Shown: positions 30,435-56,337 of the stretch, one piece after another
Layout of the letters: every line of letters begins with the position of its first letter
How positions within the stretch are numbered: the stretch's first letter is position 1
From: Tribonema minus
Taxonomy: Eukaryota > Sar > Xanthophyceae > Tribonematales > Tribonemataceae
Length of the DNA stretch: 64,000 nucleotides
Direction: 5' to 3'
Assembly (NCBI GenBank): GCA_017506865.1
Contig: JAFCMP010000027.1
Location: 401,001-465,000, forward strand
Notes under the pieces: model-generated
What the model saw: the letters and a program-made list of their open reading frames with translations, nothing else
What the model was told of the DNA's origin: nothing
Databases searched by the model: none
Position numbers and translations under genes: made by a program

Positions 30435-30589
30435 ATGCCATCAGTGACCCCGCTGCAGCTGCCCGTGTCAGAGCTGGCAGCGCTGTTGCCTGCGCTGCTG
30501 GCGTGGGCTGCTGAGCAGCGGAGAACACGGGTACCGTACGCAGCAACAGGCGCCGTGCAGTGCGTTGTGCGAGGGTGTCTGGCTCAAAG
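30387..30589 (+). pseudogene. exon ending in an IQ motif
   Basis: Frame reads AEHDDTLPRLVRIPPMPSV, then LQLPVSELAALLPALLAWAA and AVQCVVRGCLAQR, ending at AAG|GTATGT. The last part fits an IQ calmodulin-binding motif (IQ...RG...R). No in-frame stop, but it belongs to a gene broken elsewhere. Confidence 0.45.
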
Positions 30590-31045
30590 GTATGTAGGGT
30601 ATGGTTGGGCGGTATGTACAGGGGTATTTATATGACGTGGGTACCGTACGCGGCCGCGCGCGCCTAGCGCTTTGTCCAAAGGTTTCTGGTCCGAAGGTAT
30701 GTAGGTCATGGTTGGGCGGTATGTACATTGAGTATGCAAGCATGTATATGACGTGGGTCCCGTACACAGCCGCGCGCGTCGTTCGAGGGTTTTCTGCTCA
30801 AGGTTATGTAGGGTATGGTCGGGCGGTATGTATACATGGTATGTATACGACGTGGGTACTGTAACCCAAACCCAGCACCCGCTGTGCAGCGCATCGTTCG
30901 AGGGTTCCTGGCTCGAAGGTATGAAGGGGTTGGGCGGTATGTACATGGGCATGTATGTATATGGCGTAGGTCCCGTACGCCTCCGCGCGTGTTGTGCAGC
31001 GCGTCGTCCGAGGCTTCCTGGCTTGAAGGCATGTAGGGTGCTGGA
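30550..31045 (+). repeat. five tandem copies of an IQ-motif exon end with its donor
   Basis: Units of 106-116 bp, each containing a CGTCGTTCGAGGGTTTCTGG-like stretch (I/V-V-R-G-F-L-A-R) followed by AAGGTATGTAGGGT and GGTTGGGCGGTATGTAC. Splice-junction-like AAG|GTATG positions lie near 30590, 30695, 30800, 30916 and 31026. Copies 2 and 3 have diverged coding parts; copies 4 and 5 still read VQRIVRGFLARR and VQRVVRGFLA. Confidence 0.65.
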
Positions 31046-31079
31046 GAAGCAAGTGTATAGGGTGTACTCTAGGCACAAG

Positions 31080-33461: not shown

Positions 33462-33741
33462 GTTGGAAAATTACGCTGGCAGGGCACTACCGTTACCAAT
33501 GCATAGCAGCAGAGGAAGCAGAGGCGCTGGAGGCGGCTAGCGCGAAGTAGGGAAGTGATCATTTGCAGAATGTACAAATCGTGTCGGCGGAGAAACTTCC
33601 CCAGTGACGGGGGCATAACCTTCCTAGAACTAGCCAGAACGTGGCAGAAACTTCCAAGAGCAACCTGTGAAGGTTCCAAGGGCAACCTGTAAAGGTTCCA
33701 GAATACTTCCTAATGTACCAGGAATGCTCCATATTACAACA
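33462..33741 (-). repeat. LTR of outer element (3' LTR in minus sense)
   Basis: 280 bp, about 94 % identical by eye to the copy at 56738. Right end CAACA. It is followed to the right by ctcccccc, the complement of its polypurine tract. Confidence 0.75.
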
Positions 33742-35009: not shown

Positions 35010-35307
35010 TGTTACGGATTGTACATTGTGGTATCCGTGTCTGATGATGCCATTATTAGGGCATACCCCTGGTATGTCGGGTGATGATGCAGGGTTTCAT
35101 ACATGTTACTCCTGAGTCAGATCCCCTGGATTGTGCCGAGGATCCAATTGCAACTTGCCAAAAAGGCAGCTGCACACTCACTTCTTTCTCTACCTCCGGT
35201 CTCGGCACAAGACAGCTATAGCTGAGGACACCCCCACCTCCACAGGCCTCCACCGACAACAAGGTAAGTTAGCATGCTGTAGCACACCGCTGCGCTCTCA
35301 TAAAACA
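35010..35307 (+). repeat. 5' LTR of the plus-strand Ty3 element
   Basis: 298 bp, TG...CA. Differs from the 3' LTR at four sites (two transitions, two transversions). The ORFs inside it are incidental. Confidence 0.85.
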
Positions 35308-36151: not shown

Positions 36152-39100
36152 ATGGCAAACAATGAGAGTGGTAACGCGGCTGGGAACCAGGGAGCTGAGC
36201 GCAGGGGCAATGGCAAGCGTGCCGCTGCCGCCAGAGCCGCAGCCCCTGCAACTACTCCGCGTTCGTCCACTGCCGCTGCTGCTGCTGAAGCTGCTGCCAA
36301 GCAGGCGGAGGAAGCCGCTGGCCATCCCCGTGCACGCTCTGGCGCGGACAACTCCGCCTCGGAGGGTGATGGACGCAGCGAGCGCGCCGCGCAAAACCCG
36401 GTGAGCCGCAGCCAAGACGCACTTTCTAGCACTCCTCCCGCTCCTGGTCGCGCACAGGACACCACCGTCAGGGAGCTTGTTCGCGCATCCAAGGCCATAG
36501 CTCTCATCCCTGACCCCCCGACAGACGCTCCGGTGGCAGTCAAAGAGCTATTTGTGTCATTGCGCGCTGAGCACACCTCCCTCGCAGAGGAGTCGCGCCA
36601 AGCCTCTGACGCCGTTAACCGGCTCAAGGTTGCTCTGATGTCCGTGGACGCCGACATCCAACGCGCTCAGAAGTCTCTTGTCAAGGTCGCCACTGACGCT
36701 GAGCGCGCCGATATCCGCGAGCAGCTCACTGCTCTCTCCGCCGACAAGTCAGAGCTCGACGCTGCGCTGATCTCTTACAGGGCACCCCGCGAGGCCAGCA
36801 GCGCTCAGCTGGTCATCCTACGCGAGCTAGCTACTCACGCCCTAAACCTCCTCAACGGTGGCGCTACCGCTGAAGAGGTCGTAAACGCCATCGCCGCCAA
36901 GCGCAACGCTCGCGCAGGTATTGCTAACCCCTTGCCTGCCCACGACGCTCCTCGCGACGCACCCTCCCGCGATCCTGACAGGGAGCGCGTTGCACAGCTG
37001 AACATCATCGCCAAACTCCCCTCCACATTATGCCTTGAACCGCTGCAGCTGACATCTGCGCTTTCCTCACGTGAACGCATGTGGCAGCAGTGGGGCGTGA
37101 AGAGGGAGTATTGGTCTGTTGCTCTTGATGCTGCCATCCCTGCAGACAAGCGTGCTGAGGTGTCTGGGCTATCTGCCACCATTGGCGGGGTTACCACGGG
37201 CTGGGACACCCTCACCTATGACCAGCGCGTAGCTGCCCTCACAACCAAATATGATGACTGGACTGCACGCCATACTGCGCGCAATGAGTGGTCTCGCCTC
37301 GTATACGACTGGCATGCTGAGTCCCCGCGTGACTTTGCCAACAGGCTTGACACTTATGGCCGGCGTGTAGAGGGGGGCTCTAACGAGGCCACTCGCCGTG
37401 AGAAGTTTTACAGCTGCATGCCTGACTTTGTTAAGGTTCAGCTGGACAGGCGTGACAACTTCTGGCAGGACCCCCTCACAGTCAGCGTGAACCACGCCGC
37501 CGCCGTCTGGCGCACTCACTTGCAAGAGCATGGGATCCCGCTCCCAGACAGCGTTGGCGCTCACGACACTCCCGCTGTCGTCGCCACTGTCACCCCCCCT
37601 AAAGGCACCCCTACGCAGGCGCCTGACGCTGCAAGCCTTCCCCGGCGCAAGGCGTCCAAGGAGGCTAAGCGGCAAGAGTGTGTCCAAGCAGCCCGGTCTG
37701 CACTAGAGGCGGATAACACGGAGTTGGCGTTTGCGCAGCTTGCGGTGCTCCATGGCAAGGGCGCCCCTGCTGCTGCGCCGCCTTCCACGCCTCTCAATTC
37801 CGGCAAGCGCAAAGCAGCGCAGGACGGCCAGCCGGCCTCTAACCCTAAGCCCGGCTTGACCTACAAGCCGTTCAACAACTGGACATGTAAGCGCTGTGGT
37901 GTGATGGTTACCACTGGCGAACGGTATGCCGATCATCACGCAAGCTCTGAGTGTCGGGACAACCGCCGCGCCCCGTCGCGCAGTCGCAGCCGCGACCTTG
38001 CGCCGCCTGCCTCTGCCGCGCCTGTCTTCGCGATGCAGGGAGCACCCATCTATGCCATGCCGCCGCAAGTGGTCCCGCAGCTGGCTGCCATGCACGGTGC
38101 CGGCCCCGCACCCTCCTGGCCCACCGTGTACCAGGCACCTGCTGCCGCGGCGCCGGCACCAGCCCCAGCCCCCACTGCGGCCGCTGCCGCAGTGCAGCCG
38201 TGGACGGCCGACATCCAGGCAGCCATCGCCGCCGCCATGGCCACCAAACACAGTGAGTCAGTGCTCGACAGCCGCTTAAGCGTTCACGCACCCCGCTGCG
38301 CGACCGCAATGCTTGCTGCGCTGGGCGTCATGTCGTCTGCTGTAGCTCAGCCTGCCAATGTGTCTGCACCCACGCCTGTTGCAAGTACCCCTGCTGCACC
38401 TGCGACATTGCACGCTGCGCGCGCTGCATCAGCATCTACGCCTGGTGCGAGTGCCCCTGCGGCACCGGTGATACCTCATGCTGCGCATGCCTCTGCTGCA
38501 TCTGCGCCTACTGACGCTGGCATGACTGCACCGCCGGCACCCTTCCATGCACGCCCTCACGTGGCTGTTCCACCTCCCCCTGCTGCTGCGACCCCTGCCG
38601 CGTCTCAGATAAGTGAGCGTGCTAGGGAGCAGGCGATGGAGCGCCATCTCACGCACGCGTCGCTGTGCTGCGGGATAGGCGGTTGGGAGGAAGGGTTTGC
38701 GCAGGCAAGTAAACTTGACTTGCATGTCAACACAGTGCTCGCTGTTGACAACTGCGCGAAGACGTGTGACGCGTATAGGGAGACACACCCTACGTCTGCC
38801 GCACCCCAGTGCATGTCATTTGATGATCCCCGCATCATCCACCAACTGCGCGAGCTGCGCCCTCACCTCACTACGTCCTCTACCCCTTGCACAGATTTTG
38901 CAAACGGGGAGGGAGTGGAGGGAGAGGCGGCGGAGCTGACATACAAGCTGGCCAAGGTGGTTACGGAGGCAGAGCTTGAGTTGGTGTTGTCAGAGAACGT
39001 CCCGCAGCTGCTCAAGTGGCAAGCATGGGGTAGGGGGAAGGCCCACCTGTTGGCCAATGGGTACGCAGTGTTAGAGACAGTCATCAAGGCATCGGAGCTT

Positions 39101-41274
39101 GACACCTGCTGCAGGCGTATGCGCGCGCTCGTCCTCATTGTGCGCAACCGCCTTGGTGTCAAGGCCGCGCTCCAGCGCCTTTGCGCAGTCCTCAATGCCA
39201 TGTGCAATAATGGAATTCCACTTTCCATGAGACATGTCCTGAAGGTTCCACGCCGTGTTCGCGGTTGCTTCTTGCGCCCTCGCGTGCGTTCCTCCAAAGG
39301 CGTGCATGACCTTGATGGACTGTTTGGCAGCCCCACGCGTCGCTGGCCTGGCTTGCCTCCTGTGAACCCTGCTCACTACATCCCATCCCCCGATGACGCA
39401 TGTGATGTACGTGATGCTATGACTGTCACCCCCCGCGACATGGCGCTCATGCTGACATACAGGTCTGACTTGCCAACTGGCAGCCAAGAGCAGTTGCAGC
39501 TGTGGCTGGCCAACCTTGTTATGCCTGATGTCGCCCACGCATTCTTGCTTGCTGCATGGTGCAGTGGCATCTTTGACATGCAAGAGTCCAGCCCCTCTGA
39601 TGATGGCTTTGCAATGTCATTGGATCGCAACTCGCCCACACCTGAGTGGCTCGCTGACAGCACTGCCGCGCTTGAACACACAGACGGCACGGCCTCACGA
39701 GAGACGCAACACACGCTCGTGCAACGCTGCATCAACGCTGTCCAACGCATCTCCCGCGACAGCGAAAGCACAGCACGTGCCAAGCTGTCTGCAGTCGACT
39801 TAGTGCCAGACAACACTGGTGAGCAGGAGAGCGACACAGACGCGGTCGCGCCCAGCTTTCTCAGAGATGCAGCACCTGACCCAGTCTCTGCAGACGCTGA
39901 CTCTGACACTGAGCCCATGGACTGCTCAGAAGAAGGGGGAGAACTCCAACAACCCCAACTTCAACTTCAACAACAGCCCCTTGCGAACCTCGCAGCGCTT
40001 AGCTTTTCTCACGTGCCTGTGCAGCCAGGCGAGAAGGTGGCCTACGCCACAGGCAGCCCCAGCGCACAACGGTTCATCAACCTCATCACACGCATGCCCC
40101 ACCAGCGAGACATCAAAGAGCTGAACATGGAGTGCATGCTGGACAACGGAGCCACGGCGAGCCTGCTGAGCATACAGCAGAGCAGACGGCTCCCAGAGGG
40201 TAGCGTACAACCGTTGCGACAGGGTGACTTCACCACCATCGAACTTGCAGACAGTAAAACGCGCATCCCTATCACCGGCGCGGTGCAGATGACTCTGCGG
40301 TTCAGGAAGACCCTCGTTCGTCATCGGTTTTATGTGACCGACATACCCATGCCTGCCATCATCGGCGGCGACTTCTTTGGGAGCTTTGGCAGTAGCCTGT
40401 CGTACTCTACCATGGAGTTCTTCCCCACGCCAGACTCCAGCGTTGCCATCCCCATGCGGCACAAGCGAGACGACAAGGCATCGAGGTTGTGCAACTTCAA
40501 GGGCCTCGTGGACAGAGTTGTCGCAGCCCCTGCTTCCCCGCCCACTGCCAAACGCAGTGCGCGCCTCCTAGAAGAGGTTGTGATGTCACCATTCTCAGAA
40601 CAAGTGGTCGAACTCGCACTGTTCCCGCCTCCTAAGGACACGCCAGAGCACACTGCGTTGATTCATGCGAGCCATGACCAGGTGATGGAGAGCCTAGCTG
40701 CGCAGGGCCTTCGCGTAGCCTTCACTGCGGTCACAGTCGCACCCAACAACCCTGTCATGGTCAAGCTTGTCAACACTGGCTCCTTGCCTGTCCTCATCCG
40801 CAAGAACACCTTTGTGGGCACAGCCATTCCTGCCACAGAGGCGGACATCCTTGAGCTTGATGAGCGGACCAGTCAGAACACAGAGCAGCTCAAACGTGAG
40901 TTGCAGAAGCGCGTGCTGGAATATGCAGTCAGACACCACCAGTCGAAGGCGTTCAGGCAGGCCGCAGACGCTGCACTCAAAGCCCTAGCCTCCGAACCAC
41001 CCATACAGGAGTCAGACTCCCCCAGCACTGTGCCAGGCACACACAGTCCGCAGCGCTCACTTGGCTCCGCCGCCCAAGTGAACGCATACAGCTCCGTCTC
41101 AGACGTTTGTGGGGATGAGGAGCTGCGCACCATGCTCATGACCGATGGTCAACTCAACCCCATACTCAAGGAGAAGGACTCGAAGGGGCAAGTATGGGCA
41201 GACCGAGTCTTTGACGTCTTGAAGCGGCATCGCGCCTGCTTCCCGGCTCACCCAAAAAACCCGCACGTCACAGA
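36152..41274 (+). CDS. gag-pol: Gag - C5 DNA methyltransferase - protease part of Ty3 polyprotein
   Basis: The frame runs from ATG 36152 to the insertion point. Residues 130-208 are a coiled coil. About 350-460 is a Gag capsid-like helical region (WDTLTYDQRV, RNEWSRLVYDWH). CKRCG...HH...C at 579 is a zinc-knuckle-like cluster, followed by a Pro/Ala linker. From 838 comes a cytosine-C5 methyltransferase: LCCGIGGW (motif I), STPCTDF with the catalytic Cys at 913 (IV), SENV at 948 (VI), CRRMRALVLIV (VIII-like), PRDMALML (IX-like) and a closing NLVMPDVAHAFLLAAW helix. It would transfer methyl groups from SAM to cytosine. DNGA at 1331 marks an aspartic protease. Motif VIII is weaker than usual. 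No stop or frameshift separates Gag from Pol. Confidence 0.85.
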
Positions 41275-41669
41275 TCTAACAAGCAACTATGTAGGTGTGT
41301 GGTTGTAAAGATCTGTGGCATGCATGGCTTACTTGTCTCTGCAGCCTGGGCTGCTGCTGATGCTGATGATGATGCTGCTGCTGGGGGAGCCATAGTGGAT
41401 GTTGTTGGGTGGCTTCAGTCACTGTGCCTCTACTTGGTCTTGTTGCTCCAGCTCTCAGGTTGTGTGCTTATGCAGAGATCTCATAGCCATCAATACTTGC
41501 AGACCCCCAAACAAGGGGCAAGTCTTAATAGTCATGAAGATCCACTACAGTGCAGCAGTCTCACTTCCTATGCTCTGAGTGTATGTACACAAGACTGAAC
41601 ATGAGGGCACTGACACATCATAAGCCTATTGATAATAAGTACTTCAATTATATACATCAAACCGTGTCA
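41275..41669 (-). repeat. 3' LTR of nested element
   Basis: 395 bp, same sequence as 51178-51572. On the minus strand it begins TGACACGGTTTG and ends GTTAGA. The 99-codon plus-strand frame inside it is incidental. Confidence 0.85.
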
Positions 41670-41683
41670 ACTCCCCCTTCTTG
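41670..41683 (-). promoter_or_regulatory. polypurine tract of nested element
   Basis: Minus strand reads CAAGAAGGGGGAGT directly before the LTR TGACACGG. The host element has the very similar GACGAAGGGGGAGC before TGTTACGG. It primes plus-strand DNA synthesis. Confidence 0.7.
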
Positions 41684-41937
41684 ACCTTTCTCTGTCCCCA
41701 GAGAAACGACTGAGACCAAAATGGGATCAGCGCTGCCAACGTACGTACCACTGTTAGATGTATCATCATAGCTACACTTATTATCTCTGCCCTCAACCAG
41801 TAGTGCTCTCATATGGACTGTCCTGTCCGAGGTTACACGTTGGTACCATGCAGCGTCATGTTCATCGTTCACACTGCATAGCCACAGCTCTACCACAACC
41901 GCAAGTTGTGTTTGTGCTTCGCTCTTGAACTTCTGAA

Positions 41938-43386
41938 TCAGCTCTCAAAATTCTTTTCGTCGTCGCTAACTTCCATCGCTTCACATTCGTTGGACGAGTC
42001 TGAGTCTGGGTCGCGCTCATCCCGGGCGGTGCTCTGCTCTTGCGCCGTGAGAAGCAGCAAGTTCCAGCTCGTCATGGGGCACGCCTCAGCCTCAGCGGTC
42101 GTTGCGGCAGTCGTGTAGTACTCAGGCCGAAGCTTGACGGTGACCAGCTGTGAAGCCGGCTGGCCATTGTACCACACCCGAAACGTGTACTTGCCGGACC
42201 GGGGCAGATACTCTTTCAGCACTCCGCGGCTCCAGCCAGTCACATGCTTCACGCGCACAGTCTGACCTAAGTAGGTCTCGCCAAAATCGGCAGGGATGCC
42301 AGGGCACATTTTCTGCACAACTTGGGGGTTTGCAGTGGTGACCCCTACATCTTTAGCCTGCTGCTGGGTGGCCTCAGCAAGAGCAATGGCTAACTGCATC
42401 TGCCTCTTGGTGAAGTCCTCCCACTCGCCGTCTTCGTAGCGTACGCGCCAGTACGGGGCTAGGTAGCCGACAACGGTCCCCCACACGTACTTGACTCGTT
42501 GCTTGAGTGAGTCTCTGTGCTCTCGCGCTACTTTTGTACCTCTGGGGAAGAGCGCCAGCGCCGCCTCTTTCGTGGCAACGCGCACGTCTCCCTTGGGCAC
42601 GCGCATCGCGTAGTCTGGCATACCGTTCTCATGCTTGAGCTCATAGAGTGCGTGGAAGGTGTCAAGCGTCCAAGGCATGGCAACCTCGAGCGCCTCGTGC
42701 TCCGTCTTCCAGCCACTTGTTGAACCATCGCGCAGGAGCCAGCGGTAGTCCCAGGAACCATTGGGGTTGTACCGGCGGTCCACCAAGCGCTCCATCATCT
42801 CGTCAGGTGCCAACATTTTTAAATCGTCGGCATTGAGCAGGGCGTATGGCCGGTCAGTCTCTAGGACTTCGGGCCTCAGGTGAAAGGGCTTCATGTTAGT
42901 CACATGCTGGCGTGTGCGGCGTATGTGACGCCCCATCATGCGGCATGAAAATGACAACCCTGAACCACCTGCCTGCTCAACAATCACCCAAGGGCCTCCA
43001 AACTTCGGGCCCAACTTCTTCGATCGGCCCTTGGCAGGCGCCTGGCGTATCATGACCAGATCGCCGACCTTGACATGCATTGCGCGCTTCACAGCCTCAT
43101 TGGCTTTGTCAATCCTGCGCACTTTGATGCCATAGGCGTCATCAATCACTTTCTGGGCCAGCTTGAGGTTGTCAATCCTGCGCTCAACCTCTGCGTGCAG
43201 GTCACCACCATGGGTTTCGTCAACAAAGGTCTCAAAAGGCAGGGTAGGCTCGCGACCATACACGCAGAAGAAGGGGCTCAAGCCCGTCTCTTCCCTGGGT
43301 GTGGCGCGTAGTGCAAACTGCACCGCTTCTAGGCCCTCATGCCAATTCTTCTGTGTCTTGTTGACCCACGCGGCTAGGACTGCCAT
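41938..43386 (-). pseudogene. gag-pol: nested element: integrase end, chromodomain-like and two SH3/Tudor-like segments
   Basis: Continues integrase after the 32-bp duplication (WHEGLEAVQFALRATPREET, GLSPFFCVYGREPTLPF), then the C-terminal GPWVIVEQAG.SGLSF and HVTNMKPFHLRP. A chromodomain-like segment follows (RLVDRRYNPNGSWDYRWLLR ... GWKTEHEAL), then a Tudor-like barrel (YLAPYWRVRYEDGEWEDF) and a second SH3-like unit (GWSRGVLKEYLPRSGKYTFR ... VKLRPEYY). It ends with an acidic tail and TGA. In chromoviruses such domains tether integration to chromatin. The ORF is open, but it has lost its upstream frame. Confidence 0.75.
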
Positions 43387-46300
43387 AATTCGCTCATTCT
43401 GTCTCTCTGCAATGCCATAATTCGCTCATTCTGTCTCTCTGCAATGCCATTCGCTTGGGGGTGGTATGCAGCGGTGTCAATTTTCCTGATCTGGAAAATT
43501 CTGCACAGGTCATGCACCACCTGGTTCAAGAACTCCTTGCCCTGATCAGACACAAGCTCTTTGAACATGGCCCCCGCTTCCAAAATCACCTTGTACAGCA
43601 AGGTGGCAATGGTGAACTTGTCCTTGTTCTTGATTGGCATGAGCCAGCAAAAACCAGAGCGAGCTTCAATCACTGTCAAAATGGCAACATGGCCGTCAGT
43701 GGAGGTCATGGACGTCGCAGTGATGTCTGTGTGCGCTCGCTGGAACATGCGAGTTGGCAGCGTCAACATCAGCTGGGCTTTACCAGTGGTAGCTTTCTTG
43801 CGCTGCAAGCAAGCGGTACAAGTAGTGACGTAGGCCCGCACATCAGTGCTCATCTGAGGCCAGTAAAAGCGCTCAAAGATTCGCAAGTGGGTAGCGCTGA
43901 CGCCTGCATGCCCGGCCGTGGCGTCATCGTGTCCAAGTCTCAGCACTAGGGCTCTCAGAGCTGTGGGTACCAGCCATTGGCGCAGCACCATCCCGCGTTT
44001 GGGGTGACTAGTGGCCAGGTGTACCAACAGTCCATCGTCTTCAATGCAGTACCAATCCTGGTTCATCATCAGGTGTAAGGCCAGCTCACTGTCCTGGGGA
44101 AGGATCCCCTCTCTCAGTGTGCGGGCTATGGCCTGGCTGTGGGGGTCTCGCTGCTGGAACTCTACAAAGTCTTCTCTGCTGAGCATCGCTGGAGTGGGGT
44201 TAGGTCCTGCAGCAGGTTGCTGGGGGACCAGTCCACGGCTGGGCTCGCTGATCGTGCGTTTGCGGCGTCGTTCCGACACGTCGTCTGCGCGCTGAGGAGG
44301 GATGGCGCCCCCACTTTGCGGTGCAGTAGTGCTTGCAGCTACTTTCCGTCTCTTCTCTGCTCTCTCCGTGGCTCTGCTAGAGGTGTGGACGCCCCCATCG
44401 GGCGCCGCTGCCTCGTCCATGCATGCATTCGCATACATGTGAAGCGTAGCTGGGCTGAAAGACAGTGCGGTGGTCTCTCCATCCGTCCACGTACAGTCCT
44501 CTTCCTCCAGTTCATCTAACATTTCGTTCACTTGCGTAACTGTAAGTGCTGACAGCTTGGCAACTAAACTACCGTCGCATGCGTCGTTCATGGCCAGCTC
44601 GTTGAGGCTGAAGGGGTTGCCCCATTCTGAGCTTACGAGTCTGCCTCTGAAGTTCGCAATACGCACAGCCTGCGGCGGTGCTAGTGGCTCAGACTCATGG
44701 TTTACCCTTGCCGCCGCAAACTTCACCCCTGACGGTGGCGCTGCGAAGCACGGTATGGAGTCTGACCACTGCTCATCTGCATGATCGTATTCTCTCGGCG
44801 CGTCTAACTCTCTCTGCATCGGCAGTCTTGAGGGCCCATCAGCGTTTGAGTTGACCAAGCCTGGTCGGTGTTGTACTGTGATGTCGTACTCCAGCAACCT
44901 CATGGCCCATCGCATCAACTTGCCGTTATGATCTTGCAACGTCAACAGCCAGCGCAGGGCTGCTGCGTCTGAGACCACAGTGATTGGGTTCCCCCATACG
45001 TACGGTCGGTAGTGGTTGAGTGAAAGCACAACGGCTAAGCATTCAAGTGCGGTAGCGCCCATCTTGGCGTCTTGTGTGGAGTTGATTCTTGAAAAATAAC
45101 CCACTACCACTTCCATTTCCTCCCTCCCATTTACTGTGCGTCTGCGGCCTGCCGCGGGGGCAGCTTCTTGGCCACTGAGTGCTTGTACCGGCTTGAATTG
45201 CGTCAGTATGCCACTGCAGGCAGTTTGAGAGGCATCGGTGTATAGCACAAACGGCAGTGAGAAGTCCGGGTGTGACACCAACTTTGCTGTGCACATGGCC
45301 TGCTTGAGTCGTTCAAAGGCGTCACGCCTTCGTCGGTCCCATTCCATGTTGGCATCAGTTTTAGTCAGCTCCACCAGCGGCGCAGCCAGTTCTGCAAAGT
45401 GGTCAACGTATCTTCGGTAGTAGTTGAAGCAACCCAGTACCGTACGCACCAGCTTCAAATCAGCTCTTCCCTTTGCATTCAATGGCGCACTCATGTCAGC
45501 CATGGCCTGGACCTTTTCAGGGTCGGGGCGTATGCCTCCAGCGCCCACAATGTGACCAAGAAATTTGATCTCACTTTGGAACCACTGGCACTTGTGTCTA
45601 GCCACACCGAGGCCAGCGTTCTGGATTCGTGACAAGACTTCTCGAATGTGAGTCAAGTGCGCTTCCATTGAGTCATCATATATCAGCACATCGTCAACGT
45701 ACACCATGGCGTAGGCCCCTAGGGCTGAACCTAGTGTGTTGTGCATCAGGCGGGTGAACTGCGCCGGCAGGTTCACTAGTCCAAACGGGGCAACTGTATA
45801 CTGCCACAGCCCGCCATCTGGCGTGCGGAAAGCAGTTTTGGGCTTATCACTTTCTCTCAATGGTATCTGATGGTAGCCGGCGGCCATGTCAATGGATGAC
45901 ACGAACTTGGCGCCTTTCATCTGATGTACCATGTCATCAATGTTGCCCAGACCTCTGCTGTCGCGCTTTGTCACAGCGTTGAGACGGCGGAAGTCCACGC
46001 AAAATCTGATCTTGTCCCCCTGTCGCGCAAGCACAGGGTTACAGGCCCATGGTCCATTGCTAGGCTCTACCTGCTTTCGCAGTTGCATCGCCTTGACATG
46101 TTCCATGATGTACTCTGCTTCTTTTTGCGCCCATCGTCTGGCTTTCTCAGCAATTGGCATTGCATCACCAGTGTCAATCTCAAACTCCATGAGGTTGGTC
46201 ACTGTAGGGTTTTTGGGGTCCTTGGCAAATACACTCGAGAACTCATTGAAAATGTCCATGAGGTGCTCAGCATACAGTCTGCCATCTGGAGCCTTCATCT

Positions 46301-48488
46301 CATACAGGTCGCCATCCTTTGGCAACATCTCGCGAAGCTCTTCGGTGGTGCATGGTTCTTGCGACGTGCGCGTGCGCGCGTCGCCGGCGGCGGCGGCCGA
46401 CGCCTTCGCCGTGGCACCATACATACCTGCACTCTTCTCGTTGTCTATGGCGGCCAGCGCTTGCATTGCTGCCGCGCGAAACGCCACATCAGGGTTGTGC
46501 GCAGCGGCTACTCGAAAGAGCTTTTGCTCCAGCTGGAGTGCGCTTGCGGCTTCCAGCTCAATGATCTCATCTGGCCGTACGGGGCGCGCATCGCCAATGT
46601 AGGTGTTCCTAGTCACCAACACTGGTTGATCCGAGAAGTTCACCAATCGGGCCCGGACAGGGTTTTGCGCGCTCACTACATCTATTGACATCGCGGCTTT
46701 CACGCCTCTTTCTTGCAACTTCAACATCGTTTGGGACACTGAAGGCTCTATGGTCGCCGTGTAGGGGGTGAGCCCTTGCACCGGCGGGTTAAGTGCAACT
46801 TCAACTGTCATCTCTGTGTGCGCGGGGATGAGTATGTCCTCCACCAGGCACACAGCACGATGCGCCGGTGGTGCGCAGGTTTCTGGGCTCGTTTGCACGA
46901 CACCTGCAACCTTGGCATCGCGCAGCACCGAGCTTGCCGCTCGTACTTTCGTATTGTCTAGCATTCTCAAGGTGGGGCCCTCGGCTCCCAGCGGTTTGTA
47001 TGTCAGGTCCTTGTAATCAAACAAGGTGCTGTACAAGCCAAAGAAATCACTGCCCAGGATGGTGGTGATGGGCAGGTTCACCACATAGAACTTGTGCCGC
47101 ACCAGCTTATTGCCAAACCGCAGTGTGAGGTATACCACACCCTGTATCTTCACCAGAGTGTGATTGTCTGCTAGTTCAATAACTGAATGGTCCCCCTTCT
47201 CTAGGGGGCAAATTCCCCCAGGAGAAAGCTTCCGGGCCTCTTCTTCTGACATCATGCCAGCTTCAGCACCAGGGTCCAGCAAGGCAATAAAGTCTTGCTC
47301 TTTGAACCTGCGCTGACGCTGTACTCGTGCTACCATCCGGCCAAAGCATTGTTTGCTAGGGGCGCCGGTTGGTTGCACTACCGTCTCACCAGGTCTAACC
47401 AAGGCAGGGTCCACGATTGAGTGTAGTGGCTTCCCAATCTCCTCATTAAGCCTAGCTGCGACCGCGCTGGCACGTGGGTTGCCACGCCCTTGTCTGCGCA
47501 GAACTTCATGGGGGTCATTGTCAAACGAGGGCTCATCATTGTCATCACAGCCTGTAGGGTGGCAGTGTGACGAATCACCGTCACTGACTGAGCTCTGCAT
47601 GAGCGGTTCTTCTTCATCACTGTCACCTTCAAGTTCAACTGTCTCATCTTCAACTGTCTCATCCTGGTACGCGTCAATGGAGGACCAAGGGCCCGTGTTG
47701 AGGCCCTCGGCACTAATCATGTCAGGTGTAATACGGTGCTGCCAACTGCAGTGAGCAGCAGTAATGGCAGCAACCCTAACCTGCGCACGCGCTTGCTCTT
47801 CACGGGTCTCTGCCACATGCACAATGCCTTCCAAATCCGACTGCATCCATTCAGGGCGGGGTGCAGACGGATCATGGTCCAAGCGAACGCCTCGAGAGCA
47901 CGAGACGCTAGCGGGAAGGTCCAGTATGCCAGAGCCTGCAAGGGCAACTGCTAGGTGAAACGCCATGCGGGGCATGACAAGATTCACTAGCCATAACTTC
48001 ACGTCTTCGATGGTGGCACTTGTTGGCAGGTCACGTGTAAATGTGAGCAACACAGCCATCTCGCGCAATGACAGCACTCTAGCTTCATGCACAGTACCAG
48101 CATCGTTGACTGCATCAGGCACATAGTCAGCAAGGTCCACCGGCGGTTTGCCAGGGTTCCTCCGAACAGGGCTTGGCATGCAATCAGTGGCAGCATACAC
48201 GCTTTTGCAACCCTTGGTGCGTGATTTCCAAAAGAAACAACGCTCAGGGCAGCGAAGAACACGGCGGACCGAGACTGGTAATGATGAACGCTGAATAGCA
48301 TTAAGCAAAGCCCCAAACCGCGCCGCAGCGGCGGTAACCCCCGGTCCTGCCTTGACGGCGAGTATGTAAACTCGGCGCCTGTGGCAGGCAATGCTAAACT
48401 CCGAGCCCTTGAGCTTGCTCACGTACAGCAAGTAGCCCGCCTCCAGCAGTATAGCCTCCGCCCGTGCCCAAGCCCTCGAGCTCAGCAT
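43374..48488 (-). pseudogene. gag-pol: nested element pol: methyltransferase C-terminal half, protease, RT, RNase H, integrase
   Basis: Open frame from 48488. It starts in the methyltransferase after motif VI: CHRRRVYILAV (motif VIII), SLREMAVLLTF (IX) and VNLVMPRMAFHLAVAL. LLDPGAEAG is the protease active-site region. RT has FCVDFRRLNAVTKRD, DMAAGYHQIPL and YVDD (45690-45701). RNase H has LYTDASQTACSG, ALECLAVVLSLNHYRPYVWG and DGPSRLP. Integrase has HDDATAGHAGVSATHL ... CTACLQRKK and the catalytic D (HTDI), D (VSDQGKEF) and E (NGIAERQNE). It ends early at a TGA created by the 32-bp duplication at 43382-43445. The methyltransferase N-terminal half lies upstream in other frames. Confidence 0.85.
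43382..43445 (-). repeat. 32-bp tandem duplication disrupting integrase
   Basis: GCCATAATTCGCTCATTCTG plus 12 bases is present twice, at 43382 and 43414. With one copy the integrase frame runs straight from AERQNERIMA into VLAAWVNKTQ. With two, the frame ends at TGA within 12 residues. Confidence 0.9.
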
Positions 48489-48840
48489 GATACCACGTTC
48501 TCAATCAAACAGCAACGCAGCCCCGCCCTCACGATGAGCTGCGCGGCCTTCTCTGTCACTTCGGCGGCCTCGTCCTCGATGCCCAGTCCATTGGCATAGT
48601 CTGTGCACGGGGGGGAGATCGTGGTGAGATCAGGGTCAAGTTCAACCAGTGCTTTGGTAACTTCAACGCTGCTCAAACATGCATTCAGCACTTGTGGGGT
48701 GCGAGGGTGCAATTCATGGTAGGCCTTACACACGCGGGGACACATGTCAACGGCAGTTGAGTGTTCACCGCAAAGCCAACCACGCTTGCCTGGGCAAGCC
48801 CCTCGTCCCACTCTCCAATGCCACAGCAAAGGAGGCATGA
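48482..48840 (-). pseudogene. gag-pol: nested element: DNA methyltransferase N-terminal half, frameshifted
   Basis: In one frame (about 48840-48750) HSCLLCCGIGEWDEGLAQAS gives motif I. In the next, AVDMCPRVCKAYHELHP, SPPCTDYANGLG (motif IV, catalytic Cys) and CLIENVV (motif VI) follow, down to 48482. A one-base loss near 48482-48487 then leads into the long frame at 48488. All motifs match the host element's enzyme at corresponding positions, so the enzyme was once complete. Two frameshifts make this copy inactive as read. Confidence 0.75.
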
Positions 48841-48887
48841 GTGATGCGCTGCGCTGCCCCTGTCACTGTTCTGTCAGTGTCAAGGTC

Positions 48888-49740
48888 CTATGTGGCAGCA
48901 GCAGCAGCACACACAGATGTAGAGTTGCCGTCAGGTGCTGAACCTGACGGCAACGGCTCTGAACGTGGTGTACATCTATCATTGTCAACTTCAACTTCAA
49001 CGTCAACTGCAGCCACGGGTGCCACCTGCATGGGGGCACCGGTGAGCAGTGACGGTGCGAGCAGTGCACACAGCAACCCAGCGGCGCTGACCGCGCACTG
49101 CGTTACGCATGAGCGCGTCAAATAGGTGCCGCACGTCTGTCAGTGCCAGCAAGCGTTCGACGCGGCTCAGAGGCAGCAGCATCTTGGCTGGGTACGCGCG
49201 CACGCGAGCGTGACTCACCAATGTGCGCGACTCCGTAGTCCGCAAGCTGCTCCATGATTGCACTCCGCTGCGCGACGCTGGCGCTGGGCGCGCGCGTCAT
49301 GGCGGCAGCAACGGCCAGCAAGCCATCATAGCTTTCCCTGCCCTGGTCCAAGCCATGCTCAGCCTGGTGCAGCGCGGTAGCCTGCAAGGCGCCGCAAACA
49401 TAGCACGGGGGGGGCACGCCCGGCGCGCCAGCAGGGGCGGCGTAATTGACGCCGGGGCTGCGCGGCTGACGCGACCGCAGTGGCGGCGGCGACCTGCAAC
49501 TGGAGCGCGGTGACTGCGGCAGCATGTGTGCTCGACTCTCTCTGTTCATACTTCTGGTCACGTGTCGAGCGCGACAGCGACTTAACGCTACAGGTCTTTG
49601 TATCCTGCGACACGCTCGATCCAGCACCACCGCCGTCCTCCAAGGAGGGTTCGTCGTGGACACCGCTGCCTGCCTCTTTCGAGGGTGAAGCAGACGACAC
49701 CGAGCGGGTGGCAGCGACTGCAAATTGCACAGTCACCGCA
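48888..49740 (-). pseudogene. gag-pol: nested element: degenerate gag region
   Basis: Protein-like text is spread over several frames: SVSQDTKTCSVKSLSRSTRD (49600s), PPCYVCGALQATALHQAEH (a Cys/His cluster as in the host's zinc region), MEQLADYGVAHIGES, LLPLSRVERLLALTDVRHLF (about 49150) and an acidic linker, AVDVEVEVDNDRCTPRSE (about 49000). At least three frame changes occur. It is shorter than the host gag, and capsid-like helices were not found. Confidence 0.55.
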
Positions 49741-51159
49741 CAGCCCGCTGCAGATGGCTCACCATCTCTCTCTCTCTCTTCGTGCCGATCAGGGCGCGCA
49801 GTCGCTCGGCGTCAGTGACCTGGATATCCATCATGGAATCCAGTTCATCGTCAACCGTGACCGCGCTGTCAGCCCTGACCCGTGTGCGCGGAGGACAGTG
49901 TCAGACTGCTTCACAGCTGCTGAAAGCCGCGTGAAGTTGAGTCTGACCCCGTGCACCTCCTCAACACATGCGGTATGCACCGTGCGCCGCACGTGGCTTC
50001 GATGCAGGCTGCATTCTCTTCTAAAATTCTGAGTCTGTCCATGACAAGGAACATGTGTTTGACCCCATTCACACCACGCTATTCCTCTTCGTTCAGTCAT
50101 CATCTTTGATTATGCGCTGTGAGCATGGTAATGCAATTGCCAGACATCCCCCTGCTCACAGCACATCAGCAACTGGAATCCGTGTGTATTCTGCCCATAC
50201 ATATGCCAGCATGGGTCAGCACATCATGACAAGTAACACTTCCACAAGATGTTAAATGCCTGCTTATCTCGCCTTTACCATTTGTGCTGCGCGCAGTGCT
50301 CGAATCTGCAGGTAGCACCGGTTAGAGCGCGCTTGAAACAAGCGAGCCTGCCCGCGCCGAGCAGCAAGCTTGATCAAATTCCATCTTTAACGTCATGAGT
50401 TAGCGCTGCTGTCTTTGCTGAAATGTGGTTCTCTCCCTCTCGCATGTACGCACGTACGCATCATGCATCTATCTGACAACATAGCTACTGCATTGGACGT
50501 GCAGTACTACCGGCAGGCCGCGACAGAACCTGGCGGACGAATTGCGGCCGCAAGTCGGTTACACGCAACGGTGCTAGGAAACAAAGGGTGGGGGGTCTGT
50601 AATCTGTTAACCTCTGATCCCACTTAGGCGTATGCAAGGCAGTGCGCTACACTGTGCATTGATGGCCATCAACCTCATCATCCCGTATTTCAGCGCTAAC
50701 AACAGACGTCGTACACAGCGGGTGTGCACCGCCGCGCACGAGCAAACTTATGCGGGCACTCAGGCGGAGGGCTGCCTACACAGCCAAAGCACGGCTGTTG
50801 AGTGTTTGCGACTGCGATGACAGCTAACATCGTGTAGCAAAGTGGCGGCAGAGCGTGTCTCGAAGCTGCTACTGCCAGCCATTTCCCCAAGTTTCCTGAA
50901 CTTTCTCTGGCCTTCCATGAACGACAATTAGTACGAATAGCTACCAACCACGCCGCGCGTCCGCTAGCGCGAAGGTGCCTACTATTCAATGGAGTGTTAA
51001 GAGCCTAACGTGACGAGATAAGCTTTAATGCGCGTAAGAAGAATTAGCCTCCGCAGCGGTCAGGACGAGCTAGAATGGTTAGCTAGTCGGCTAACGAGTA
51101 CGGTGCGTTAGCACGAGTAGCCTACTGAGCTATCTGCGGAGCGGAGGGAAAGGTAAAGC
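49741..51159 (-). other. leader of nested element
   Basis: About 1.4 kb between the primer site and the first gag-like text. Short frames only, for example 49831-50103 minus, with no motif. A CTCTCTCT run lies at about 49768-49780. Confidence 0.4.
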
Positions 51160-51176
51160 CTGTCTGTAGGGTGCCA
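51160..51176 (-). promoter_or_regulatory. primer-binding site of nested element
   Basis: Minus strand reads TGGCACCCTACAGACAG one base inside the LTR end GTTAGA. It shares TGGCAC with the host element's site but then differs, implying a different priming tRNA or divergence. Confidence 0.55.
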
Positions 51177-51177
51177 T

Positions 51178-51572
51178 TCTAACAAGCAACTATGTAGGTG
51201 TGTGGTTGTAAAGATCTGTGGCATGCATGGCTTACTTGTCTCTGCAGCCTGGGCTGCTGCTGATGCTGATGATGATGCTGCTGCTGGGGGAGCCATAGTG
51301 GATGTTGTTGGGTGGCTTCAGTCACTGTGCCTCTACTTGGTCTTGTTGCTCCAGCTCTCAGGTTGTGTGCTTATGCAGAGATCTCATAGCCATCAATACT
51401 TGCAGACCCCCAAACAAGGGGCAAGTCTTAATAGTCATGAAGATCCACTACAGTGCAGCAGTCTCACTTCCTATGCTCTGAGTGTATGTACACAAGACTG
51501 AACATGAGGGCACTGACACATCATAAGCCTATTGATAATAAGTACTTCAATTATATACATCAAACCGTGTCA
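51178..51572 (-). repeat. 5' LTR of nested element
   Basis: 395 bp, no difference seen against 41275-41669 when read side by side. Confidence 0.85.
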
Positions 51573-54500
51573 CAGACACCACCGAGTTCGACATTGACAC
51601 CGGTGATGCATTGCCCATGGCGGACAGAGCCAGACGTTGGGCCCGCGCAGAGGCTGAGTACATCATGCAACAGGTAGCCCAGATGCACGCACGCAAGCAG
51701 ATTGAGCCCTCCAATAGCCCCTGGGCTTGCAACCCCGTTCTCGCACGACAGGGTGACAAGATTCGCTTCTGCATCGACTTCCGCAAGCTGAACTCTGTCA
51801 CCAAGCGAGACAGCCACGGGCTGGGCAACATAGATGACATGCTGCACAAAGTGCAAGGCACCAAGGTGATCAGCACGCTGGACATGGCTGCTGGCTACCA
51901 CCAGGTGCCCCTCACCACGTCCGCAAAGCCCAATAAGGCGTTCCGCACGCCTGATGGTGGACTCTGGCAGTACACTGTGGCCCCTTTTGGCCTGGTGAAC
52001 TTGCCTGCACAATTTACGCGACTCATGCACGGTGTGCTGGGCGAGGAAGCCCTGAAGGACTACGCAACCGTGTACGTGGATGATGTGCTCGTCTATGACA
52101 CCGACATGGAGGCCCACCTCCAGCACCTTGACGCAGTTCTCACGCGCATAGAGGCTGCAGGCATGAGTGTGGCCTGGAAGAAGTGCCAACTCTTCCGCTC
52201 TGAGGTCAAGTTCCTTGGACATATCATTGGTGCAGGTGGCATTCGCCCTGACCCTGAGAAGGTGAAGGCAATGGCAGACATGAGCGCACCCCTCAACGCT
52301 AGGGGCCTCGCAGACAAGCGGCTCGTACAAGTCGCTCTAGGCGTGTTCAACTATTACCGCCGCTACGTGCGCAACTTTAGCGCCATCGCAGCCCCGCTTG
52401 TCGAGCTCACCAAGGATGGCGCGTGCATGGAGTGGAACGCACGCCGCACAGACGCTTTTGAGCGGCTGAAGCAGGAGATGTGTAGCGCTTCCATAGTGAT
52501 GCACCCCGACTTCTCACTGCCCTTCGTGCTCTACACGGACGCCTCCAAGGTCGCCACTGCCGGTGTTCTCACGCAGTTCCGGCCGGTCACGGAGCTTGAC
52601 AGCCCGCTCATGAAAGCCAAGCCACCAACCTGCACTGGGCGCACTAGCCTGGTTGAAGGGACCTTGCAGCGTGAGGTCGTTGTGGGCTACTTTTCAAAGA
52701 TGAACTCTGTTCAGGACGCCAAGATGGGAGCCACAGCTCTCGAGTGTCTTGCAGTAGTCTTGTCAATGAACCACTTTCGGCCTTACGTCTGGGGCAGGCC
52801 ATGCACTGTCGTCACCGACGCAGCTGCCCTCCGCTGGCTCCTCACACTTCAATCGAATGACGGCAAGCTGCTCCGCTGGGCAATGCGCCTACAAGAGTAC
52901 GACATCACCGTCCAGCACCGACCTGGCAAGGTCAACTCCAACGCCGATGGACCCTCTCGGCTGCCTCAGCAGGCAGAGCTAGACGCGCCCCGCCGTGTCG
53001 ACCATGCCGATGAGGAGTGGCCCGACTCCATTGCCACTTTTGATGCGCCGCCGTCAGGTGTGCAGTTCGCAGACGACCCAGTCACCACACACGCAGTGGA
53101 GCGAGCCGACACCACGGAGCCCGGCCAGCGCCCCTCTGACGAGCGCGTCGCCACCCTGGCCTCATACAAAGGCTGCGTCGTGCAGCACTCTATGGGCACG
53201 CCTTTCCGCCTTACCGAGCTTGCAGCCTGCCTGGCCAGCTTTGGAGGCATCGCGCAGTCCCGCAGCGAGGTGACCCCAGAGCAAGCAAAGCAGCTGCTCC
53301 ACATGCACGCAGATGAGTCCCCATGTGAGGTCGCACTAGGTGAAGCCGCCACACTGCTCACCCCGGCCACCATGGATATGCACATGAACGCTCTCCTTGA
53401 CGAACACTTCAAAGGGGACAGGGACAGCCTCGGCATGGGCAACTTCGAGCCCTGGCGTCAAAGCAAGAAGCGTCGCAGCAACGCAGGAAAGGCCGTCCAG
53501 GTGGCCACCACCACTGCCACCACTGTGACAATCGACGCGGACCCCGCTGACGCCGCCGTTGCACGTACCAACTGTGACGGTGAGCGCCCCCGTAAGCGCA
53601 CTCTGCCGCGGCCTGAGCCCACGCCTCTTGCTGCGCAGCCAGAGCCTGCCAGTGCTGGACCGCCGCCTACACCTGCCATGCTGAGTCGTGAGGCTTTCAT
53701 CGAATTTCAGCGCCGCGACCCCTTCTGCTGTGCAGTGACTTGCCTGCTGGCTGACAAGGAGCTGCCCACGGACAAAGACCTTGCCGTGCACTTGATGGTG
53801 GCACGCGAGTGCTACAATCTTGAGCATGACGGTCTCATCATACACTTCGCAAGCAGTCATCCCAAACGCGGACAAGTGCTGTGTCAATGGGTCGTCCCTG
53901 CCGCGCTACGCACCCTGGTGCTTCGTCTGTGCCACGACGACGCCAGCGCGGGCCACTCCGGCGTCAGCGCCACCCACATTCGTGTGTTTGAGCGCTACTA
54001 CTGGACTGGCATGGCCCATGACATCCGCACCTATGTGACCAGCTGCATGGCGTGCCAGCTGAACAAGAAGGCCAACACATCCCGGTACAGGACACGCCTC
54101 TTTCCCCCCACTCGCATGTTCCAACGGCTCAACGCAGACCTAGTCTCGCCGGGCTTGAGGGCAGGAGGGTTTGAGTACATTCTTACTGTGGTTGAGGCCA
54201 GGTCTGGCTTTGTGTGGCTCTTCCCACTCAAGTCTAAAGACTCCAAAGAGGTGTCAGCGCACCTCTACACTGTCATCTTAGAGGCAGGCGCCCTCGTGGA
54301 AGAGATAGTCACTGATCAGGGTGGAGAGTTCATTGCTGGGGTCGTGCATGACTTGTGCACCAGCATGGGCGTGAAGAAGATCCAAACCAGTGGCTACCAC
54401 CCCCAGACTAACGGCGTCGCCGAACGCATGAACGCTCGCGTCTTGCAATCACTCCGCCTGTGGGTGAACGACCGCCAAGACAACTGGCACGAAGGCCTCG

Positions 54501-55908
54501 AGACACTACAGTTTCAACTGCGAGCAACTCCTCGCGACGAAACGGGCCTGTCACCGTTCTTCTGCGTCTACGGACGTGAAGCCACCCTGCCGCACGACGC
54601 GTTTCACCACGCAGACCGTCCCATGGACCTACACATGGAGGTCGAAAAGCGCGCTGAGTCACGGCTGTTGGCTGAAAAGGTCATCAGTGAAGCCTTCGGC
54701 AAGCGTGCTGCCAAAGTGGCAAAGCAAAACGACATTATCAAACGCTCCGTCAACGTCGCCATCGGAGATTGGGTCCTCGTCAGACGAGAGCCAGTCGAAG
54801 AGCGCGCACGCAAGATGGACGAGAAGTACACTGGGCCCTGGCAAGTGATGGAAAAAGCAGGTAACTCAGGACTCTCCTTCACATGTCGAATGATGGGCAG
54901 CCACATCAAACAGAAATCTGTGCACGTCACGCACATGAAGCCCTTCCGGCTCCGCCCCAGCCACTTTGAGCACACATCTCCACACGTGCAACTCACAGCA
55001 GCGCAACTGCAAGACCTTCCCCATGAGGAATGGCTCGAACGCATAGTCGACAGACGCGTCGGCCCCAACGGCAAGTGGCAGTACCGCTACATCGACAGAA
55101 CGGGCCAGCAGAGCGACTTCACCAGCGAAGCTGCCATGCTTGAAATGACGCAGCCGTGGGTACTTGACACGTTCCACGCCATGTATGAGCTGCGTCATGG
55201 CGACTGCATACCCCTGTACGCGCGCCGCCCCGAGCCTCCAGCCACGCGACGGCTCTCGGTTGAGGAGGCCCTACAGCGGTTTTCACGCGGCACGACAGTG
55301 GTGCGCGAGGTGACCACCCCTCTGGCTCACGCGAGTACATCTGGGGTGCCATCAGCGGTTACCTCCACCCCTACTGGCGCGCTCGCTACGACGATGGCGA
55401 ATGGGAGGAGCTCAACGCAACTGAGGTCAAGGCTGCCATCGCCCTGGCTGAAGCAGCGAAGAGCAAAGCCCAGAGACGCGGCATCACCGCCAGCAAGCCG
55501 CAGATCACTCTTGTCACCAGCCCTCTGCTACCTCGCAACTTCGGTGCAGACAACGTCGGTGATGTGATCCGGTACTACAGCAGCTGCACTGGTTGGTCTC
55601 GCGGCCGCCTTGTAGCGTACCACCCTCGCCATTCACGGCACACCTTCGATGTGCTGTTCACAGGCGAAGCACGGCCACGGCGCCTGCGTTTGCGTGAGGG
55701 GTACTACAAAGTCAACGAGCAAGACGCCAACGCTCCGCTGACGGATCCCCCCCATAGCACTTGGAATCTCATTGTCGACCAAGCCGACATACCCGTGTCC
55801 ATTGAGAGTTCCTTGGCTTACATCCGTGCTGTGCTTCAGCCGCCCCCGGATTCACCCTGTGGGGCTCGCCATCCCTCCTACCGCTCTGACTCGAACAGCT
55901 TTACTTGA
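51573..55908 (+). CDS. gag-pol: host Ty3 element: RT, RNase H, integrase, chromodomain-like and SH3-like tail (one frameshift)
   Basis: Continues the host polyprotein after the insertion (TTEFDIDTGDALPMADRARR). RT: FCIDFRKLNSVTKRDS, DMAAGYHQVPL and YVDD (52073-52084). RNase H: LYTDASKVATAG, ALECLAVVLSMNHFRPYVWG, DGPSRLP. Integrase: HDDASAGHSG ... CMACQLNKK, catalytic D (NADL), D (VTDQGGEF), E (NGVAERMN). Then GPWQVMEKAGNSGLSF, a chromodomain-like IVDRRVGPNGKWQYRYID, and SH3/Tudor-like YLHPYWRARYDDGEWEEL and GWSRGRLVAYHPRHSRHTFD. The first frame runs to a TGA at 55565-55567. The homologous tail is in the next frame from about 55320 to TGA 55906-55908, because CCCC at 55317-55320 is one base short. 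Confidence 0.85.
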
Positions 55909-56333: not shown

Positions 56334-56337
56334 CTGG

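Follow-up and report, generated by a model that had tools for sequence, protein, structure and literature searches.

C5 cytosine methyltransferase domains in the Gag-Pol frame of Ty3/gypsy retrotransposons of a red-plastid alga

Results

The window, i.e., the whole 64,000-nucleotide stretch of algal DNA analysed here, contains a Ty3/gypsy retrotransposon (element A) that almost certainly carries a genuine C5 cytosine methyltransferase domain. The domain shares one open frame with a Gag-like part upstream and a protease-like part downstream (Table 1), related domains lie beside most of the reverse transcriptase (RT) rows examined in the genome, and the domain is under purifying selection in five of the six pairs tested.

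Positions 36152-41274 constitute the front half of element A on the forward strand, not a whole element: position 41274, with which the original prediction had closed the element, is the last base before the nested insertion of element B. The open frame starts at an ATG at 36062 and extends past 41274; an alternative ATG at 36152 is a start consistent with copy L073. The predicted assignment to Ty3/gypsy (Metaviridae) held, as element A possesses LTRs, a target-site duplication (CTGG immediately before the 5′ LTR and immediately after the 3′ LTR), the order RT-RNase H-integrase and an RT of the Ty3 kind, and the Ty3-G Gag-Pol chain was the best match of its RT-to-integrase part (E 7.6e-88). 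The proposed location of the enzyme between Gag and protease is supported in terms of a Gag-like and a protease-like part, neither of which gave a match in Pfam searches of element A. The Gag label derives from position and from a C-x2-C...H...C pattern. For the protease-like segment, weak Pfam matches below the cut-off were obtained in the relatives B (E 0.038), L029 and L074, no protease was recognised in the relative L075, and the active site among the elements reads D-N/P/C-G.

Element B is of A's kind, also methyltransferase-bearing but on the opposite strand, with LTRs that are identical across 395 bp and with CAGA on both sides. Its methyltransferase is frame-broken, and the frame 43374-48488 ends at a 32-nt duplication (43381-43444). 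Because B interrupts it, the window copy of A cannot work as it stands.

Table 1 Features of elements A and B (positions in the window)
Feature	Position	Strand	Basis and details
A 5′ LTR	35010-35307	+	ends by eye; 303-bp block 98.35% identical to 56036-56338, 5 mismatches
A Gag-like part	36152-38590	+	open frame and position; C-x2-C...H...C pattern at 37880-37954
A C5 cytosine methyltransferase domain	38633-39583	+	PF00145, fold search, motifs: I 38663-38695; IV (Pro-Cys) 38879-38899; VI 38981-39007; VIII 39107-39142; IX-like 39419-39460; X-like 39503-39544
A protease-like segment	40130-40378	+	motifs by eye; D-N-G at active site
A continued: RT, RNase H, integrase	51573-55564	+	translation; YVDD 52073-52099; Ty3-G Gag-Pol match
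A 3′ LTR	56036-56333	+	ends by eye
Element B	41275-51572	-	LTRs 41275-41669 and 51178-51572; inserted in RT region of A
B methyltransferase C-terminal part, protease-like, RT, RNase H, integrase	43374-48488	-	Pfam
B methyltransferase domain over three frames	47955-48834	-	motif I 48790-48834; IV 48587-48622; VI 48488-48511; VIII 48360-48389; X 47955-47993
B stretch past integrase core	41938-43386	-	weak SH3/Tudor-like matches, below Pfam cut-offs

The predicted methyltransferase motifs I, IV, VI, VIII-like and IX/X-like were recovered in order and in one open frame (38663-39544), numbered as in the C5 methyltransferases. Within residues 830-1150, the part singled out in the original prediction, PF00145 matched significantly at residues 865-1033 (E 6.3e-13; score 49.3 bits, cut-off 22), and TIGR00675 matched below its own cut-off (44.9 against 100.65). 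An AlphaFold model of the domain had a mean pLDDT of 69. Of its first 15 ten-residue blocks, 13 have values of at least 77, and confidence is low around the catalytic loop (88-95) and in the target-recognition part. In the fold search, which gave 122 PDB matches at E 0.001, the best 50 were all C5-methyltransferase chains (best E 7.7e-10). The Pro-Cys motif, ENV and R-x-R are conserved in all eight aligned subfamilies. The A-group enzyme is predicted, with fair confidence, to be catalytically active.

None of the 54 and 53 PDB sequences that the profiles matched, nor any of the best 50 of the 122 fold matches, is a chain named DNMT3. Judged by these PDB chains, the element enzyme does not appear to be nearer to DNMT3 than to the remaining C5 methyltransferases. 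DNMT2 chains were the best profile and fold matches, with HhaI and DNMT1 scoring nearby in the profile searches; DNMT2 is a tRNA methyltransferase, and HhaI and DNMT1 are DNA enzymes. The element enzyme differs from DNMT2, however, in its distant sequence (15% for the top fold match) and in the DNMT2 signature, a motif IV of its own type plus CFT: motif IV of the window domain reads PCTDF, and by eye the domain has no CFT triplet. Membership in DNMT2 was rejected on motif IV and CFT as read in the window domain.

Methyltransferase domains occur at at least about 280 places in the 158-Mb genome, plus at least 72 divergent ones belonging to a third RT group. The first count (282) results from merging pieces within 300 bp, and a few of its places (L001-L004) do not belong to elements; since only such close pieces are joined, broken copies may be counted twice. 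The 72 places were merged by hand out of 140 rows, with three 25% matches excluded. The A subfamily retains the complete domain, still open, at 13 of 17 places, so the domain is not a peculiarity of the window copy. Across the three RT groups, a domain was found upstream in 118/150, 56/62 and 49/55 of the RT matches listed and kept, leaving 32, 6 and 6 without a listed domain. Rows of the L group were kept at ≥60% identity and 200 aa (n = 62); those of the third group (n = 55) were at 37-39%, and C6:108683 (40%), C223:142838 (49%, part length) and C21 (RT of the A type) were excluded. As pairing distance we chose 1.5-4.5 kb from the domain start or 0.8-3.5 kb from the domain end. Copies L073, L074 and L075 have whole-length open frames with methyltransferase, RT, RNase H and integrase. 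The domain is thus in frame with element proteins and present in many copies, as in a retrotransposon-borne DNMT. A 97% relative was present in another record, and an alignment of five domains matched 9 proteins among 8000 candidates scored. Used as a frame of its length with its methyltransferase region, the window ORF had no match at E 1e-5 among 4828 candidates, and none of 31 pattern matches in the viral contigs scanned was confirmed.

One subfamily of the third RT group seemingly kept the domain after loss of the active site. The 25-residue catalytic loop is missing in 27 matches, which align unbroken across the gap; 22 have, or are listed with, 99-100% identity, near-identical copies are many, and some frames reach 3455 aa. 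L076, an open stretch with a match to the methyltransferase profile at 99.1% probability, is without the Pro-Cys loop and has ENA in place of ENV. It also led us to abandon the view that the domain is absent from the third RT group (0/55 paired), as the domain there is divergent. Copies at about 65-69% identity have 25 extra residues at the gap in all ten places computed, with R-C where P-C is expected in the one sister loop read. Decay is possible in the loop-less subfamily, as the frame changes at motif I in 14 of the 27 places, stops occur in three, and the letters come from one copy, like those of the sister loop.

In the domain tree, ten element-type domains all fall on one side of a branch (support 80/73), and the inner groups agree with the RT groups wherever the RT is known. 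This agreement makes a single old capture likely; the branch for a single origin carries no star, and that of el_T3 is long. The five pairs under purifying selection, which come from subfamilies F, N, M and B-like, had dN/dS values of 0.11-0.19, with Fisher p between 0.0017 and 3e-25. Higher values, from few changes, were obtained for pair O (0.50), a close M pair (0.55) and A versus L073 (0.63), and the latter comparison had too few changes for a domain-wise estimate. As a possible methylation scar, CpG-context transitions were elevated by factors of 1.2-2.2 between copies, against a factor of 2.0 for the control pair; CpG decay is thus not specific to the elements.

Discussion

Cytosine methylation is a standard means by which hosts silence such elements, and elements with an enzyme of their own therefore reverse the usual picture. 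As the best explanation, to which we give about an even chance, the Ty3 retrotransposons of a red-plastid alga captured a C5 methyltransferase probably once, before the three RT groups split, would have inherited it with the element ever since, and would use it mainly on their own cDNA. The enzyme would be translated within the Gag-Pol frame, upstream of Pol, and should therefore enter the particle in which reverse transcription occurs. There it could methylate the cDNA before integration, and new copies would arrive marked; marked copies could escape a host response to naked DNA or stay quiet enough to persist. Self-methylation of cDNA as the main use is unproven, and we favour it only tentatively, as the likeliest of the roles considered. 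Against this explanation stand a subfamily that multiplied despite its missing catalytic loop, the 32, 6 and 6 RT rows without a listed domain together with dN/dS of 0.50-0.63 in some pairs, and the lack of element-specific CpG decay together with the lack of methylation by the published Gypsy enzyme in yeast, a result judged inconclusive (PMC5890265).

The domain might instead be retained chiefly for a function other than catalysis, either binding nucleic acids in the particle or forming part of its structure, with methylation secondary or already lost in some lineages. This is a less probable reading, to which the open but loop-less L076, the near-identical copies aligning across the gap and the R-C of the sister loop lend weight; the catalytic motifs are intact in the other eight aligned subfamilies, however, and the frame changes and stops, with letters from one copy each, are also compatible with decay. 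A related and doubtful proposal is that the domain is a core part of these Ty3 lineages, acquired once before their split from a non-DNMT3 family, and that one amplified subfamily carries a pseudo-methyltransferase; the domain would then also have a particle job that needs no catalysis.

Methylation of RNA inside the particle, e.g., of the element's RNA genome or its tRNA primer, would fit the DNMT2 chains as best matches, and the authors of PMC5890265 brought it up for their LINE case. It is improbable here, with DNA enzymes scoring close behind and with a motif IV and lack of CFT that are not of the DNMT2 type. Still less probable is an enzyme that mainly alters the host methylome, as discussed for Symbiodinium: hundreds of places within one genome would suit such a role, but the sequence gives no sign of a host-directed function. 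A chance match, contamination or an assembly artefact is a negligible prospect, with nothing found in its favour; it is contradicted by the E-values, the fold, the spread over many contigs of as much as about 2 Mb and the 97% relative in another record.

Within this one host, hundreds of places, three RT groups and both loop-bearing and loop-less subfamilies form a natural comparison of methylation, age and copy number. Light-harvesting proteins gave matches of the red lineage. The rbcL pieces read as the red type of the red/green distinction, and the host therefore seems to be of another lineage than the dinoflagellate and Klebsormidium cases, as had been predicted. Those cases are real: retrotransposons with DNMTs were described in 2018, among them one of the Gypsy type (de Mendoza et al., PMC5890265), and our find is less new for this precedent. 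The elements described here would extend the known captures by an algal lineage and by an enzyme outside DNMT3. Beyond PMC5890265 and its correction, we found no report of DNMTs in Ty3 elements in the literature text available; the paper cites two works for DNMTs linked to RT domains, one of them a 2011 review by Iyer and colleagues, which may hold an earlier mention.

According to PMC5890265, which leaves open whether the enzyme benefits the element, KnitGypsy-Dnmt3 of Klebsormidium nitens is likewise Gypsy-type, carries a C5 methyltransferase within its Pol polyprotein and is under purifying selection, but it has a DNMT3 enzyme, which showed no methylation in yeast (judged inconclusive), a charophyte host and a DIRS-like repeat layout. 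The elements described here differ in that their LTRs are ordinary, their enzyme profiles match no DNMT3, their places are far more numerous and one subfamily lacks the loop. SymbioDIRS-Dnmt3 of Symbiodinium, too, has its C5 methyltransferase in the Pol frame and a high copy number, but is a DIRS element with a tyrosine recombinase and a DNMT3 enzyme; two SymbioDIRS enzymes yielded CG methylation in yeast (PMC5890265). DNMT3 is also described from LTR Copia and DIRS elements of streptophytes and dinoflagellates (PMC12344493). SymbioLINE-Dnmt of Symbiodinium shares the hundreds of copies and an enzyme outside the DNMT1/3 families, but is a LINE with the enzyme in ORF1 and is CG-depleted (PMC5890265). 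Sola1 of Ectocarpus (PMC12477816) is another algal mobile element that brings a DNA methyltransferase of its own, here a DNA transposon with an N4C/N6A methyltransferase that has a ParB domain and is encoded by a separate gene on the other strand.

A C5-methyltransferase domain within a Ty3 element

Contig C27 of the 158-Mb genome (554 contigs) contains the window, in which a plus-strand Ty3 element, A, is interrupted by a minus-strand relative, B. From reverse transcriptase (RT) to integrase, A was matched best by the Ty3-G Gag-Pol chain (E 7.6e-88). Its frame could start at 36062 or 36152, the latter being more likely because it is consistent with L073, another copy in the genome.

Features of elements A and B (window positions)
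Feature	Position	Strand	Remarks
LTR retrotransposon A	about 35010 to 56333	+	LTR block 98.35% identical over 303 bp; CTGG flanks both ends
Gag-like part	A frame, ahead of methyltransferase	+	
C5 methyltransferase domain	38633-39583	+	in A frame
Protease-like segment of A	near 40130-40378	+	
RT, RNase H, integrase of A	51573-55564	+	second half of A, beyond B
Element B	41275-51572	-	separates the two halves of A; 395-bp LTRs without difference; CAGA flanks both sides

The original prediction that the element carries a C5 methyltransferase was borne out by profile and by fold. PF00145 matched the domain with E 6.3e-13, and TIGR00675 with E 1.2e-11, below the cut-off of that profile. The predicted structure (mean pLDDT 69) was mostly confident in the catalytic half and of low confidence in the catalytic-Cys loop and the target-recognition part; in a fold search against the PDB, the best 50 of 122 matches were all C5-methyltransferase chains, led by S. 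pombe DNMT2 (E 7.7e-10). As a single sequence the domain had no match at E 0.01 among PDB sequences. Those matched by its profiles included DNMT2, HhaI, DNMT1 and HaeIII but none under the name DNMT3.

The predicted position, here between a Gag-like and a protease-like part, is shown for the A-clade elements only, because L075, a copy from the L group of Ty3 elements, has no recognised protease but an alanine-rich stretch at that place. The protease-like segments have the active-site triplet D-N-G in A (40130-40171), D-P-G in B and D-C-G in the loci L074 and L029, versus D-T/S-G. Three long open frames were scanned for domains (L073, L074 and L075), and each carries methyltransferase, RT, RNase H and integrase in a single frame, with an additional weak protease match in L074 and a chromodomain in L075 (PF00385, E 1.1e-6).

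Since its LTRs are identical and CAGA stands at both sides, B is by its sequence a young insertion. Its methyltransferase is split over three frames and its integrase frame is ended by a 32-nt duplication; young LTRs together with broken frames suggest that intact relatives helped to copy it. The CpG ratio is 0.05 in the LTRs of B (0.047; 41275-41669 and 51178-51572) and 0.46 in those of A; outside, 1-kb tiles average 0.90 (sd 0.21). This depletion, seen in two LTRs only, may reflect methylation or its avoidance. Direct repeats of 280 bp (33462-33741 and 56738-57017, 94.6% identical, AGTTG at both outer sides) mark a third, older LTR element that seems to hold A, which in turn holds B. The window also has a tandem array of five copies of an about 107-bp unit (30559-31059) and a 473-bp tandem duplication (59377-60149, 98%).

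Spread, retention and origin of the domain

The domain recurs in further copies of the A subfamily: with the window domain as query it was whole and stop-free in 13 of 17 places (96-100% identity) and partial or in pieces in the other four. Merged match lists gave at least 282 methyltransferase places, a few of them outside elements, and the third group gave at least 72 further places. One A-type domain (C311:3862-5052) lies inside a 6208-aa open frame. Standalone methyltransferase frames of 367-390 aa occur outside elements at L001, L002 and L003 (contigs C223 and C181); L001 has phage families as close relatives (phrog_363, E 1.5e-48).

By RT queries, the Ty3 elements fell into three sets, here called the A group, the L group and the third group. 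Among the RT matches listed, a domain lay upstream in 118 of 150, 56 of 62 and 49 of 55, respectively, the unpaired ones including A itself (split by B) and B (broken frames). Domain dN/dS was 0.11 to 0.19 in five of six pairs tested (Fisher p 0.0017 to 3e-25), namely F, N twice with one sequence shared, M5/18, where synonymous change was saturated, and the C-terminal half of B against L051; in the sixth pair, O, the ratio was 0.50 (p 0.025). It was 0.55 on 11 changes in a close M pair, and 0.63 on nine for A versus L073.

In a tree of 18 domains (nine element sequences, the metagenomic relative P0003, three other sequences of the genome and five metagenomic ones), one branch set the element sequences and P0003 apart from the other eight with support of 80/73, below the starred level. 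T3 and the DNMT2-like sequences sit on long branches. Inner groups joined A, B, O, F and G with P0003 (99/97), N with T3 (95/89) and L with M (94/93). RT identity to A was 74% for B, about 70% for the F and O copies, 55% for a G copy and 36% for L075, and three M-type places are paired with RTs that share 66-67% identity with the L075 RT; an RT of N type was absent from the RT matches listed. Domain grouping thus agrees with RT relations where both are known. One old capture is the simplest reading, and several captures are possible.

A subfamily apparently without the catalytic loop

L076, of the third group, is a 1151-base stretch with one frame open throughout. The methyltransferase profile aligned to it over 260 columns at 99.1% probability, and PF00145 matched with E 2.4e-4, one bit below the cut-off; the Pro-Cys loop of motif IV is missing and ENA replaces ENV. 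Among the matches listed, 27 places align to L076 across the missing loop without a break, 13 spanning the query in full or almost in full (two with stops) and 14 beginning at residue 57 (one with a stop), the latter with a frame change near motif I. Sister copies (about 65-69% identity) have 25 extra residues at the loop in 10 of 10 places computed. Individual residues at the loop were read in just two copies, one loop-less and one sister; the sister, in C54, has R-C where P-C was expected. This subfamily seems to have lost the catalytic loop and multiplied nonetheless.

A frame change near motif I is common to at least 14 loop-less copies (among them C511:1660493-1661640 and C538:560308-561455) and leaves two frames, about 1496 and 1972 aa long, that overlap; some other loop-less copies read through 3455 aa. 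The change is possibly a programmed frameshift.

Possible function and comparison with known cases

Lying in the polyprotein upstream of Pol, the methyltransferase would be carried into the particle, the site of cDNA synthesis, where it could methylate the element's own cDNA. Such self-methylation was proposed in 2018 for retrotransposon DNMTs in a paper that demonstrates CG methylation in yeast for two SymbioDIRS enzymes and none for the Gypsy enzyme, a result its authors call inconclusive (PMC5890265). We rank self-methylation as the likeliest use of the present enzyme too. The domain might instead serve a role outside catalysis, which the loop-less subfamily of the third group favours. No deamination scar was found among copies, in which CpG-context transitions were up 1.2 to 2.2 fold, versus 2.0 fold in the control, one pair of loci outside elements.

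The genome contains at least 92 light-harvesting matches and two short rbcL pieces, each with a stop, in nuclear contigs C334 and C112, which we take to be of red type. Both speak for a host with a red-type plastid rather than a charophyte, in keeping with the expectation that the host differs from earlier ones. Those earlier cases, named in the original prediction, are indeed on record: DNMT-bearing retrotransposons were published in 2018 from dinoflagellates (LINE, DIRS) and Klebsormidium (Gypsy) (PMC5890265). Compared with them, the host here seems to belong to another lineage, the profiles of the enzyme match no DNMT3, the enzyme stands ahead of a protease-like part in A-clade elements, and its carriers span three RT groups, a loop-less subfamily among them.
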